From a virus, in the IMG/VR virus record IMGVR_UViG_3300030000_000059, positions 1 to 21,202 of that record: DNA of 21,202 nucleotides. One strand, given 5' to 3'. Below are positions 1,102 to 20,397 of this stretch, piece after piece; positions within the stretch are counted from its first letter, which is position 1, and the number at the start of each line of letters is the position of its first letter. The notes beneath the pieces are model-generated. The model had not been told where the DNA came from, did not search any database, and worked only from the letters and a program-made list of their open reading frames with translations. The translations under genes were made by a program, and so were the position numbers.

Positions 1102-1277
1102 TGGACTTTCGACCGAACTTCTTGAAACGGCTGGAACTGAAACAATTCTGCTACGATCTGGTTACATCGGATCGCAAGACGTTCTGGTTAGAGACCAAAG
1201 CGCGCATGGAACAACGTAAGTTCGACCTCGGTGGTTTACTGAGGTTGGCTATCAAGCGTTCCAAAGAAGGGGTATAA
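1101..1277 (+). CDS. small basic hypothetical protein, coupled to the RecA-like gene
   Basis: A 58-codon gene whose ATG shares a base with the stop of the preceding gene (TAATG at 1099-1103). It ends immediately before a strong stem-loop, so it closes the operon. The product begins MDFRPNFLKRLEL and is rich in Lys/Arg (about 13 of 58) with several aromatic residues. No signal peptide or membrane segment is evident. Function unknown. Its tight coupling to the recombination ATPase and basic nature fit a nucleic-acid-associated or accessory role, but this is inference. The operon-style overlap and correct placement before a terminator are the main support for it being real. Confidence 0.65.
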   Translation: MDFRPNFLKRLELKQFCYDLVTSDRKTFWLETKARMEQRKFDLGGLLRLAIKRSKEGV

Positions 1278-1281
1278 GTAG

Positions 1282-1305
1282 ACGGAGTCCTTCGGGGCTC
1301 CGTTT
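1282..1305 (+). terminator. stem-loop terminator with TTCG loop and TTTATGCC tail
   Basis: A nine-base-pair stem ACGGAGTCC / GGGCTCCGT (one G-T wobble) closes on a TTCG tetraloop. It is followed only by TTT and then ATGCC rather than a long T-run. It sits 4 bases after the stop of the 58-aa gene and before the early-type promoter, so it probably insulates the two units. The tail matches those at 7401 and 9393. Confidence 0.7.
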
Positions 1306-1338
1306 ATGCCGTTTGTCGAATTAAAAAAATCTCAGATC

Positions 1339-1346
1339 TATATTAC
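1339..1346 (+). promoter_or_regulatory. phiKZ-type early promoter motif TATATTAC
   Basis: A perfect TATATTAC lies in an AT-rich stretch (about 1320-1380) between a terminator and the first of four small genes. TATATTAC is the published consensus of phiKZ early promoters, read by the injected virion RNA polymerase. The transcript would start just downstream and leave an untranslated leader of roughly 60 bases before the ATG at 1410. It is the only exact copy I found in the window. Assignment rests on motif and position. Confidence 0.6.
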
Positions 1347-1377
1347 CAATGTGAATAGGATACAAAATCTCTTGTTC

Positions 1378-1405
1378 AAACCTAATCTACTGTTCTATGG
1401 AGAAC
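1378..1405 (+). repeat. early-gene leader repeat, copy 1 (inverted repeat around the RBS)
   Basis: The motif AAACCTAATCTACT is followed by GTTCT-ATGG-AGAAC, four bases before the ATG at 1410. GTTCT and AGAAC are perfect inverted repeats and the Shine-Dalgarno GGAG straddles loop and stem. Near-identical copies precede the genes at 1934 and 2513. It may be a translational control element or a promoter. Confidence 0.6.
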
Positions 1406-1409
1406 GACT

Positions 1410-1877
1410 ATGACAACTTACAAAACTGCTACTCATCAGAACATCGCTGTTTGGGCTCGTCGCCTGAAGGTCGAGGTTCTGGATCTGGATAAAGCTGCGG
1501 CTTTTGCAGATCGGCTTTACGGTGGACCAAGCCGTAAAGGTTGTTTGGCTGTACTGGCGATGAAGTGGGTGGCTGTTGCTACCGACACCATCGTTGTAGC
1601 CCCGCAGAACGTCGCCGCAGGCATTGCCATGAGCAAGGTCCTGTACGACAGTGTTTACGGGGATCAGAAGTATCGGAACGTCTATGACGGTTTCCGTGAC
1701 GAGTTGGCCAAACTCGTTGATGGTAAGCAATGTACTCAGGTACAGGCTGACCAGTACTTCGAAGTCTTGAAAGAGATTGCGTTGGACTTTGTCTCTAAGG
1801 GACAAGCCGCTCGCAATAGCGATCATTCCTCACCGAGCATTGCTCGGCTGATCGTGAACAAGGCACGAGGGCACTGA
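1410..1877 (+). CDS. early hypothetical protein (155 aa)
   Basis: First gene behind the TATATTAC motif. ATG at 1410 has GGAG seven bases upstream inside the leader repeat. The product is 155 residues, soluble-looking, with an Ala/Val-rich helical middle (about residues 48-75) and no recognisable catalytic motif or signal peptide. It heads a run of four small genes that ends at a poly-T terminator, the usual setting for phage host-takeover proteins in phiKZ-like phages. That role is inferred from position only. I do not recognise a family. Confidence 0.75.
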   Translation: MTTYKTATHQNIAVWARRLKVEVLDLDKAAAFADRLYGGPSRKGCLAVLAMKWVAVATDTIVVAPQNVAAGIAMSKVLYDSVYGDQKYRNVYDGFRDELAKLVDGKQCTQVQADQYFEVLKEIALDFVSKGQAARNSDHSSPSIARLIVNKARGH

Positions 1878-1883
1878 TACACC

Positions 1884-1901
1884 GGGGAGTTTCGGCTCCC
1901 C
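1884..1901 (+). other. UUCG-capped stem-loop between early genes
   Basis: GGGGAG and CTCCCC form a six-pair GC-rich stem, extended by a T-G wobble onto a TTCG loop. It stands between the stop at 1877 and leader copy 2. No T-run follows, so it is more likely an mRNA stabiliser, processing site or partial attenuator than a full terminator. Confidence 0.5.
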
Positions 1902-1928
1902 AAACTAATCTAACGTTCTATGGAGAAC
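1902..1928 (+). repeat. early-gene leader repeat, copy 2
   Basis: The motif AAACTAATCTAAC is followed by GTTCT-ATGG-AGAAC and, five bases later, the ATG at 1934. The inverted-repeat arms and loop are identical to copy 1. The upstream part differs by one inserted base and a few substitutions. Confidence 0.6.
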
Positions 1929-1933
1929 ACATC

Positions 1934-2146
1934 ATGTTTAACTGCGCACCAACTATGAAAATGCCTTCTGTTAAAGAAGCCCTCACTAAACTGGCTGAGG
2001 CTAAAGTCCAGTACGAAAAAGCTGAACCTGCAAAGAAATCTTTGTGGGCTCGGATTGTTGCTCGTTATCGTGCCTTCTTGGCAGACGCTGTTGCTTTCGA
2101 AAGAGGGCTGCTGCTCAACAATAACAAACGTCACCTCATCGTTTAA
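1934..2146 (+). CDS. small early hypothetical protein (70 aa)
   Basis: ATG at 1934 is preceded by GGAG from leader copy 2 at eight bases. The 70-residue product is Ala/Lys/Glu-rich and predicted largely helical (residues about 12-60), with a basic stretch near residues 33-45. No family recognised. It is followed without a gap by the AAAGGAG that serves the next gene, so the two are probably co-translated. Confidence 0.65.
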   Translation: MFNCAPTMKMPSVKEALTKLAEAKVQYEKAEPAKKSLWARIVARYRAFLADAVAFERGLLLNNNKRHLIV

Positions 2147-2158
2147 AGGAGTATGACC

Positions 2159-2476
2159 ATGCAACGATTCATCGCTATCCTGACTCTGGCTCAAATGGAA
2201 ACTTCTCTGACTCGTCTTGACGATGCACAGAAAGCCCATGAAGAGATGATGAAGGAAGAGAAAGAACAAAGCACCTTCCTGTTGGAAGAGATCGCACGTG
2301 TGCAAGAGGAAGGTGCTTTGGGCCAGAAAGATTCACTGGCGCAGATCTACCTTGACCAATTGAACTACGACCTGAAACGCATCACCATCAATCAGGCTCG
2401 TCGACTTGAAATGATGATCGGTCGTCGTAAGACGATTGAACTGTTCATGAAGTGGGATCAAGTCCTCGCTGCCTGA
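2159..2476 (+). CDS. early hypothetical helical protein (105 aa)
   Basis: Two in-frame ATGs exist at 2153 and 2159. The Shine-Dalgarno AAAGGAG (2145-2151) is only one base from the first but seven from the second, so I start at 2159. This gene uses an ordinary RBS rather than the leader repeat of its neighbours. The 105-residue protein is Glu/Lys/Gln-rich with heptad-like spacing between about residues 15 and 60, probably a coiled coil, and a basic C-terminal third containing R-R-L-E and R-R-K. No known family; likely a small host-interacting protein by position only. Confidence 0.65.
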   Translation: MQRFIAILTLAQMETSLTRLDDAQKAHEEMMKEEKEQSTFLLEEIARVQEEGALGQKDSLAQIYLDQLNYDLKRITINQARRLEMMIGRRKTIELFMKWDQVLAA

Positions 2477-2481
2477 ACAAC

Positions 2482-2508
2482 AAACTAATCTTAGGTTCTG
2501 TGGAGAAC
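2482..2508 (+). repeat. early-gene leader repeat, copy 3
   Basis: The motif AAACTAATCTTAG is followed by GTTCT-GTGG-AGAAC and four bases later the ATG at 2513. Both arms of the inverted repeat are unchanged while the loop differs by one base (ATGG to GTGG) from copies 1 and 2. The change removes the TATG present in the other copies. Confidence 0.6.
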
Positions 2509-2512
2509 AATC

Positions 2513-2920
2513 ATGACACAAGTTACTCTGGCTCAATACAACGCTGGCATGATCCTGCTCAACGTTAAAACAATCGAACTGGGTAAGATTCGTAAGAACC
2601 TAACTCGGTTGCGGACAATCAATGATCGACTCGACAGTAAGTCAGGCACCAACATGCCTTACACCGAGGAAGACATCATTACCTTGTTGACACACAAGCT
2701 GGCAGCAATCATCTCGGGTAACTACGTGATGACGCTGTTCTGGATGAAGTGTACTAACAAGGTTATTGAGGATGTCATCTGGGCAACTAAGATGGAACAC
2801 CTGTATCAACATCAAGCCCAGCGTGTTGACCGTCTCGCTGAGCGTTACGGGAAGCGTGTTGATGAGATTCAGAAAGAAGCCCAAGCCATCCGTGATCGGA
2901 TTGGCGTTCGAAGCTACTGA
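2513..2920 (+). CDS. early hypothetical protein (135 aa)
   Basis: Last gene of the early-type group. ATG at 2513 has GGAG at seven bases in leader copy 3, and the stop lies six bases before a poly-T terminator. The product is 135 residues and strongly basic in its first third (several Lys/Arg between residues 20 and 45). A hydrophobic stretch lies around residues 65-82, and a charged helical C-terminus (about 95-130) is compatible with a coiled coil. No family recognised. The hydrophobic stretch is too short and polar to call a membrane segment confidently. Confidence 0.7.
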   Translation: MTQVTLAQYNAGMILLNVKTIELGKIRKNLTRLRTINDRLDSKSGTNMPYTEEDIITLLTHKLAAIISGNYVMTLFWMKCTNKVIEDVIWATKMEHLYQHQAQRVDRLAERYGKRVDEIQKEAQAIRDRIGVRSY

Positions 2921-2926
2921 AGAAAG

Positions 2927-2955
2927 TAACCCGCTTGTCTAGGGGTTATTTTTTT
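2927..2955 (+). terminator. poly-T intrinsic terminator after the early-type genes
   Basis: TAACCC and GGGTTA form a six-pair stem around a ten-base loop, followed directly by seven T. This is a classical Rho-independent arrangement and ends the unit that begins at the TATATTAC motif. It lacks the TTTATGCC tail seen at other gene ends. Confidence 0.7.
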
Positions 2956-2971
2956 GCTGTAGGTAATTCTT

Positions 2972-2979
2972 AATATAAC
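2972..2979 (+). promoter_or_regulatory. possible degenerate early-type promoter
   Basis: AATATAAC matches TATATTAC at six of eight positions. It lies in the AT-rich gap between the poly-T terminator and the gene at 3030, where a promoter would be expected. The reverse strand of the same spot reads TATATTAA (seven of eight), so strand is uncertain. Weak evidence. Confidence 0.25.
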
Positions 2980-3029
2980 GAGGTAACTATATAGGCGGTG
3001 TGTCCTCCTTCAACCCACAGGTAACAACG

Positions 3030-18765: not shown

Positions 18766-20397
18766 ATGAAAAATAGTCAGATTCCTTTTAACGTAACAAT
18801 CATGAATCTCACACCAGAGAAACTCAAGATGTTACGTCCCGTAAAGTCCCCGGACGTTTACGATCAAGTTACTGGCAACTTCCATGAAGATGGCTTGTTC
18901 TCAGTGTTGACTTTTGGCCGAGTGGGTGACGAATTGAGAGATCAGAAGTTCTCTTACATCGACATGCACTTGAATGTCCTTCATCCTACTATTTATCGCG
19001 CTTTAGTGCAGTTGCGGTCTTTGTACCGTGACATCATGGGTGGGACAGCCTACGCAGTGTTTGATGAGAAGGAAAGTGACTTCGTTCCTGCTAACGAATT
19101 GACTGGTCAAACCGGTTACGCTTTCTTCCTTAAGCACTGGAAAAAGATCAAGTACCGTACGTCCAAGTCTCCAGTTCGGACTGAACGGATTGCGATGATT
19201 CACAAGTACCTCGCCGTGGCCACCACTAAACAGTTGTTGGTGATGCCTGCTGGTTTACGTGACTTCGTAATTGATGCCAGTGGTCGTGGTACTCAAGACG
19301 AGATCAACGATATTTACCGTCGTGTCCTCGGGGCCTCTAAAGTCATCGTAGGGGCTGATGGTGCAGAAACCTCCCCGTTGTACGACAACAGTCGTAAGTC
19401 GCTCCAGGCGGGCTTCAACGACATCTACGACACTGTCCTGTCGATGGTAACCGGCAAGAGTGGGTTCATTCAGTCCAAGTTCGGTTCTCGTCGTATCTTT
19501 AACGGTACTCGTAACGTGATCTCGGCAATGGACACCTCCACGGCTGACTTGGATGGCGTTCAAGCTCCTGATTACACCGACACGATCTTGGGCCTGTTCC
19601 AAGTAATCAAAGGGGCACTACCACTGACCATTAACCTGTTGCGTACAGGCTGGTTGGGTGAAGTGTTCTCCGTGGGTGGTTCTGCAACAACTGCACGCTT
19701 GGTAGATGCTAAAACTCTGAAAGCAGAGATGGTGGATCTGCCCTCCGATACTCGTGACCGTTGGATTACGGTTGAGGGTTTGGAGAAGATCATTGAGTCG
19801 TACCGGATCGTTGAGAATCGTCACAAGCCAATCATGGTGGAAGGACGTTACTTGGGTCTGATCTATAAAGGCCCGGACATGACGTATCGGATCTTTGGGG
19901 ACATCACTGAACTGCCTGCTGACCGTGACCCGAAACACGTTGAACCGATTACGCTGGTTGAGTTGCTCTACCTATCGGGCTACCGCAAGTGGAACACCTT
20001 GAAGACCATCGTGACTCGTTACCCAGTAATTGGTATTGGTTCGACTTACCCTTCGACTATCTACACCAAGACCACGATCGTTGGCGAGATGCGCTACGAA
20101 CTCGGTCAAGACTGGTTGCCGTTGGGTGATGAGTTTATGACGTTGGAATTTCCAACTCGTGAACCGAATGCTTTCGTGGACAGTCAAGTGATCCACCCTT
20201 CCCGACTTGCAGGTCTGGATGCTGACTTCGACGGTGACACGGCTTCATCGACTATGGTCTACACCTCTGAGGCTGTGGCTGAGATCGACAAGCTGTTGAA
20301 CAGTCGTGAGGCATTCCTCGATCCACGTGGGGGCTTCCGTGCTTCGTGTAACGTAACCACGGTGAAACTTGTTTTGAGAAATATGACCGGAGACTAA
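18766..20397 (+). CDS. RNA polymerase beta' subunit, N-terminal part with DFDGD active site (phiKZ gp180-like)
   Basis: ATG 18766 follows GAGAG at a normal distance; 543 residues. Near the C-terminus L-D-A-D-F-D-G-D (Asp487, Asp489, Asp491) matches the NADFDGD loop that holds the catalytic magnesium in all multisubunit RNA polymerases. The following T-S-E-A-V-A-E and L-D-P-R-G-G-F match the bacterial sequence after that loop. The protein then stops, so beta' is split just after the active site, as known for phiKZ-like phages. Adjacency to the transglycosylase-type virion gene points to the virion polymerase (phiKZ gp180) rather than the non-virion one. The rest of beta' must be encoded elsewhere. 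It transcribes early phage genes after injection. Confidence 0.85.
   Translation: MKNSQIPFNVTIMNLTPEKLKMLRPVKSPDVYDQVTGNFHEDGLFSVLTFGRVGDELRDQKFSYIDMHLNVLHPTIYRALVQLRSLYRDIMGGTAYAVFDEKESDFVPANELTGQTGYAFFLKHWKKIKYRTSKSPVRTERIAMIHKYLAVATTKQLLVMPAGLRDFVIDASGRGTQDEINDIYRRVLGASKVIVGADGAETSPLYDNSRKSLQAGFNDIYDTVLSMVTGKSGFIQSKFGSRRIFNGTRNVISAMDTSTADLDGVQAPDYTDTILGLFQVIKGALPLTINLLRTGWLGEVFSVGGSATTARLVDAKTLKAEMVDLPSDTRDRWITVEGLEKIIESYRIVENRHKPIMVEGRYLGLIYKGPDMTYRIFGDITELPADRDPKHVEPITLVELLYLSGYRKWNTLKTIVTRYPVIGIGSTYPSTIYTKTTIVGEMRYELGQDWLPLGDEFMTLEFPTREPNAFVDSQVIHPSRLAGLDADFDGDTASSTMVYTSEAVAEIDKLLNSREAFLDPRGGFRASCNVTTVKLVLRNMTGD

Follow-up and report, generated by a model that had tools for sequence, protein, structure and literature searches.

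A structure-conserved predicted hairpin over the Shine-Dalgarno sequence at early-gene starts in one lineage of phiKZ-like jumbo phages

Introduction

The closest precedent for the element described here is the family of Start-Associated Sequences (SAS/ESAS) of cluster K mycobacteriophages, which occur in 11-19 copies, lie over an AGGAG a few nucleotides from the starts of non-structural genes, and are of undefined function; their outer bases can pair, as GGG-ATAGGAG-CCC, and a subset carries an upstream promoter or inverted-repeat extension (PMC3203893; PMC11373665; PMC12699233). The conserved SAS sequence spans 13 bp, could form a 3-bp stem with a 7-nt loop and was described by its authors as non-palindromic. 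Structured initiation regions have also been studied for single genes of phage T4, namely e, soc, 49, I-TevI, 25 and 38, and T4 RegB without S1 cuts GGAG that has an unpaired GGA and a constrained last G (PMC3014915). Among phiKZ-like phages, early promoters have been predicted in phiKZ, where the motif is TATATTAC, and in OBP, EL and 201phi2-1 (PMC7058600), and the centre of such early motifs lies some 10 nt upstream of the transcription start (PMC7598289). No report of the Shine-Dalgarno hairpin element was found in the open-licence papers covered. Here, sequence comparisons lead us to propose that one phiKZ-like lineage folds the ribosome site of most promoter-proximal early genes into a hairpin.

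Results

The window, meaning the whole stretch of 21,202 nt that was analysed, represents part of the genome of an uncultured phiKZ-like jumbo phage. At 18766-20394 it encodes an RNA polymerase beta subunit (PHROG 2986, E 1.7e-201), part of the multisubunit virion RNA polymerase (vRNAP) of phiKZ-like early transcription, and in a relative it carries annotation as virion-associated. Named phages gave 294 relatives of the beta subunit, headed by Xanthomonas phage LucasX at 52%, and no DNA-level match to the window. Closely related IMG/VR contigs are 79-91% alike in the beta subunit protein, and these relatives, with contigs found through the leader pattern, made up a clade set of about 11 metagenomic IMG/VR contigs (G001-G011), several of them fragments. 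Bacterial genome contigs searched for host identification contained no relative. Gene starts were called by a script (ATG plus Shine-Dalgarno) in the same way in observed and control sets, and the named-phage controls were whole or nearly whole genomes for phiKZ, EL, T4 and LucasX (LucasX being taken whole only in the promoter-proximal survey of ten named jumbo phages) and parts of genomes for the remaining phages.

The initial annotation had reported three copies of a GTTCT-N4-AGAAC inverted repeat near early-gene starts, and all three were found to be exact and on the + strand (Table 1), with 0.05 copies expected in dinucleotide shuffles and none of 100 shuffles containing three. The shared upstream sequence AAAC(C)TAATCT, the spacing of 4, 5 and 4 nt from stem to ATG and the sizes of the three downstream reading frames likewise agreed with that description, as did the gene at 2159, which has an ordinary Shine-Dalgarno sequence, AAAGGAG, in place of the hairpin. 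That the downstream genes are unrelated held for the 155- and 135-aa proteins, which were compared pairwise, the 70-aa protein lying outside this comparison. The stem arms had been called invariant, which did not survive comparison: the two arms vary in concert among relatives and across other early genes, and the features that persist are pairing, a constant tetraloop size and the C-U/A-G closing step. The 155-aa protein had no PHROG match and no significant Pfam match, and Rfam gave no match over the gathering score across window positions 1200-3000.

Table 1. Positions of the early promoter, leader elements and genes in the window
Feature	Position	Strand	Basis
vRNAP early promoter, AAAAAAATCTCAGATCTATATTAC	1323..1346	+	PWM of 38 clade instances
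5'-terminal hairpin of early mRNA (1352-1360 paired with 1370-1378)	1352..1378	+	RNA fold
Linker copy 1, G-poor, AAACCTAATCT, with UAAYCY motif	1378..1388	+	sequence
Shine-Dalgarno hairpin copy 1, GTTCT-ATGG-AGAAC	1392..1405	+	shuffles, fold, covariation
Early gene, 155 aa	1410..1877	+	ORF; orthologues with hairpin in G001, G003, G010
Strong GGGGAG-type hairpin between genes, no U tract, preceding copy 2	1884..1901	+	fold
Linker copy 2, AAACTAATCT	1902..1911	+	sequence
Shine-Dalgarno hairpin copy 2, GTTCT-ATGG-AGAAC	1915..1928	+	shuffles, fold
Early gene, 70 aa	1934..2146	+	ORF
Early gene, 105 aa, without hairpin in the window	2159..2476	+	orthologue comparison
Linker copy 3, AAACTAATCT	2482..2491	+	sequence
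Shine-Dalgarno hairpin copy 3, GTTCT-GTGG-AGAAC	2495..2508	+	shuffles, fold
Early gene, 135 aa	2513..2920	+	11/12 clade family members keep hairpin, loops vary

Across the clade there were 781 gene starts with GGAG, and CU stood at the loop-closing position in 166 of them (49 expected). At 98 of these 166 sites all three further positions pair (13.9 in shuffled sequences); pairing was at chance at GGAG starts without CU (6/615), and only 3/52 CU sites in ten other phages pair at all three flanks. Covariation was assessed in 34 early leaders that were chosen by CU-NNGG-AG alone, after leaders more than 75% alike had been removed. Pairs 3, 4 and 5 were Watson-Crick in 32, 30 and 28 of the 34 (shuffled 14.6, 14.1 and 15.0), each of these pairs occurring in three or four Watson-Crick types, and pair 6 was at chance (7/34 against 10.9 shuffled); the stem is therefore held at five pairs. 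This class I hairpin, NNNCU-NNGG-AGNNN, has exactly 5 pairs and a 4-nt loop, while class II, UCCU-NAGA-AGGA, is held at four pairs around a 4-nt loop in which the AG is conserved. The start codon follows either class by 2-8 nt. At gene starts only a loop length of 4, with its inner subsets 6 and 8, was enriched, lengths of 3 and 5 being at or below chance. No fewer than 20 different arm sequences occur in paired form in the clade, and the stems are weak, with a median of about -2.2 to -2.5 kcal/mol. Comparative analysis of the leaders thus shows the predicted hairpin to be real, conserved in structure and tied to gene starts and early operons.

The restriction to early genes was seen when gene starts were sorted by their distance from early promoters. 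A 4-bp hairpin with a 4-nt loop over the Shine-Dalgarno sequence was present at 40/68 promoter-proximal starts (about 59%; shuffled control 6.0), leaving about 40% of promoter-proximal early genes without one. The same type was found at 25/51 starts up to 700 nt from an early promoter (control 3.8), 41/122 up to 2 kb (control 6.2), 29/167 up to 5 kb (control 5.4) and 93/1081 beyond 5 kb (9%; control 33). One contig (L319), identified afterwards by nothing but the promoter pattern, has one promoter and a gene with GTTCT-TAGG-AGAAC. The element was not shared by ten named jumbo phages (phiKZ, 201phi2-1, D6, EL, OBP, LucasX, FLC9, KpLz-2_45, pEa_SNUABM_54 and SPN3US), where 5/78 promoter-proximal starts had a hairpin. 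Apparent matches in D6 and 201phi2-1 were discarded as mostly terminators read on the opposite strand, as judged by eye.

Orthologues change their arms or their Shine-Dalgarno register with the pairing kept (clusters 5, 8, 10, 15, 20, 22, 27 and 45). G001, G003 and the window share GTTCT-ATGG-AGAAC ahead of the 155-aa gene, for which direct reading of the G010 leader gave UUCCU-CAGA-AGGAA; one gene family has arms ACCCT/AGGGT and CUUCU/AGAAG, another has GUGCU/AGCAC, GUUCU/AGAAC and a stem in the GAG register, and a further family has both AAUGC-AGGA-GCAUU and UACCU-UAGG-AGGUA. Loops of the 135-aa gene orthologues are GTGG, CTGG, ACGG or AAGG. The hairpin is lost in some members of orthologue families, including the window gene at 2159, whose orthologues in G003 and G008 carry UCCU-UAGA-AGGA. 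A gene for a 754-aa RNA polymerase beta subunit with a GTG start (G007:207194; L154:7194) was also seen to be preceded by AGACT-AAGG-AGTCT, which is present in G007 and G004 and absent from the other orthologues.

The early operon of the window lies behind a TATATTAC-type promoter (1339-1346), and at the score cut this motif was found 94 times in the clade, always on a single strand of each genome. The longer motif AAAAAAATCTCAGATCTATATTAC at 1323-1346 matches in kind the early promoters predicted in phiKZ, OBP, EL and 201phi2-1 (PMC7058600). Transcription upstream of copy 1 is predicted to start at about 1351-1353. With the vRNAP early promoter TATATTAC about 45 nt upstream, copy 1 falls within the 5' UTR; copies 2 and 3 lie further inside this operon, and the + strand around them contains no sigma-70-like promoter. 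The leader of copy 1 folds at -11.5 kcal/mol (z -2.3). A hairpin at the 5' end is a tendency of promoter-proximal leaders across the clade, where this terminal structure has a mean z of -1.06; in phiKZ, EL, 201phi2-1 and D6 it is not enriched, the means being near zero or positive. When a longer stretch is folded (1386-1442), the GTTCT arm of copy 1 has an alternative partner, AGAAC, in the coding region at 1438-1442. Several early promoters of D6 (OQ363659; for example L276 and L277) are followed by GTGAATATAGCCC, mirroring an upstream GGGCTATATTAC, and the two form an inverted repeat that spans the promoter.

A UAAYCY motif, scanned as UAA[UCA]C[UC], precedes the hairpin in 56/106 early hairpin leaders and was found in 24/135 early leaders without a hairpin; it lies mostly 8-9 nt before the loop, in a linker that is G-poor in early hairpin leaders (6.7% versus 20%). 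The same bipartite motif was seen in another phage group (L055, L058, L061, L063, L064, L066 and L067), as CTCTAACCTTTAGTTCTAAGGAGAACAAAACATGGCTCAGCC before one gene.

Two further structures were noted around the operon. Internal Shine-Dalgarno hairpins in G002, G004, G007 and G008 have, by eye, a strong intergenic hairpin without a U tract just upstream, and hairpins of this kind, including the one preceding copy 2, could be processing or 3'-end protecting elements. At 2927-2955, TAACCC/GGGTTA followed by seven T was also recognised by eye, the loop being too long for the scan used, and is likely the terminator of the early operon.

Folds from -45 to +24 gave the GG of the Shine-Dalgarno sequence an unpaired probability of 0.80 in hairpin leaders, 0.40 in other early genes and 0.30 in genes far from early promoters, and gave the AG 0.13 in hairpin leaders versus 0.36. 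Stem stability rose with Shine-Dalgarno strength (overall rho 0.47; in class I 0.37, p 0.03), which is what tuning would give and is weak evidence, because both energies share nucleotides.

Discussion

Like the SAS, the jumbo-phage element occurs in many copies per genome near the starts of unrelated non-structural genes and lies over the Shine-Dalgarno sequence, several copies standing 3-7 bp before such starts. Unlike the SAS, whose sequence is fixed, it varies, with a 4-5-bp stem and a 4-nt loop kept by covariation, and it belongs to phiKZ-like phages and is tied to vRNAP promoters. The 13-bp SAS consensus GGGATAGGAGCCC was absent when up to two deviations were allowed, and none of the leaders, read directly, had GGG...CCC outer bases. 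The structured starts of T4 e, soc, 49, I-TevI, 25 and 38 resemble it in that a folded Shine-Dalgarno sequence or spacer in a phage mRNA sets initiation, and differ in being gene-by-gene structures, mostly of late or homing-endonuclease genes, with stronger stems. RegB also targets the Shine-Dalgarno sequence of early mRNAs, and a structured GGAG with an unpaired GGA and a constrained G is a good substrate for it in vitro, but class II has no GGAG and RegB (PF10715) was absent from eight related contigs, several of them fragments, in a search that did find it in T4 as a control. CsrA/RsmA sites share a GGA at a hairpin loop over the Shine-Dalgarno sequence with a free stem sequence. Their register is off by one from that of the jumbo-phage hairpin, which has the A of GGA in the stem, and the class II loop is without GGA; no ANGGA was found fully within a loop, the A in class I pairing with the U at the stem top and the motif being absent from class II, and the phages searched held no CsrA (PF02599) homologue.

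The reading that we put forward, at about an even chance of being correct, is that the element belongs to early, vRNAP-made mRNAs of one phiKZ-like lineage and sets 30S entry through the Shine-Dalgarno hairpin. A marginally stable hairpin behind a single-stranded, G-poor UAAYCY linker would offer the exposed loop GG as a nucleation point for the anti-Shine-Dalgarno of the 16S rRNA tail, which, once nucleated, would displace the weak 5' arm. Being local, the hairpin may also shield the ribosome site from other pairings, and initiation on unrelated early genes would then proceed at a uniform, modular rate. The initial annotation had suggested a hairpin in the RNA that restrains translation: covariation and the restriction to early genes strongly bear out the RNA hairpin, and restraint is one possible effect of it. 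Since the stems are weak and the GG is predicted to be more exposed, such presentation of the Shine-Dalgarno sequence is no less likely than restraint. The class II leaders, which bury AGGA in the 3' arm, do not fit simple presentation.

Ribosome entry alone also leaves unexplained the fixed distance of UAAYCY and the loop AG of class II, which is kept even though the Shine-Dalgarno sequence does not need AG there, and these two features favour a trans-acting reader, instead or in addition. This main rival, in which UAAYCY and the hairpin form a binding or cleavage site by which a factor of phage or host origin would set early mRNAs apart as a class, is a tentative but substantial possibility; the factor might be a repressor or nuclease that ends early translation, in the manner of RegB, or one that recruits or exports early mRNAs. 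The enrichment of UAAYCY, the invariant loop size, the confinement to the early class and a class I geometry close to that of the T4 RegB substrate without S1 (PMC3014915) all speak for it. The loop and stem letters are loose, however, class II offers no GGAG and neither candidate homologue was found in the phages searched. That the bipartite motif and tetraloop hairpin serve as a class-wide tag, through which a phage or host factor switches, recruits or protects early-mRNA translation, is a shade more doubtful. An improbable alternative is that the hairpin merely makes early mRNAs less competitive, so that unstructured late mRNAs later take the ribosomes, as its early specificity, the paired AG and the inhibitory helices of T4 e, soc, 49 and I-TevI (PMC3014915) would allow. 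A weaker Shine-Dalgarno sequence would be a simpler route to the same effect, and other genes have a less exposed GG. Stems this weak lie in the range that de Smit and van Duin reportedly regarded as harmless to translation, and braking through stem stability on its own is the less likely option.

A promoter role had been named as the main alternative, and we now regard it as very unlikely that the motif holds a late (nvRNAP) TATG promoter, with the inverted repeat incidental or with transcripts that start at the G and lose the 5' arm, as for T4 gene e. Late transcripts of phiKZ do start at TATG (PMC7598289), and TATG is present in copies 1 and 2 of the window, but among non-redundant class I leaders just 8/40, all with the loop AUGG, contain this sequence (the closing U plus a loop AUG), and no class II leader does; copy 1 lies downstream of a vRNAP promoter, the orthologues of the third gene have other loops, and the arms covary. 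Still less probable is a DNA palindrome for a dimeric regulator, or a set of leaders copied by shared descent without selection on pairing. An inverted repeat in several near-identical copies could suggest either, but the many distinct paired arms, the NNGG loop that is always on the coding strand, the fixed distance to start codons and the covariation among non-redundant leaders all stand against them, and a DNA operator is rejected on account of arms that vary in a paired manner.

Accounts of early gene control in phiKZ-like phages usually concern promoter and polymerase, and strong selection for RNA structure at early-gene ribosome sites across a lineage adds a translational layer. By analogy, the finding suggests that the SAS of mycobacteriophages, as unexplained start-associated repeats, may merit a test as structural RNA elements.
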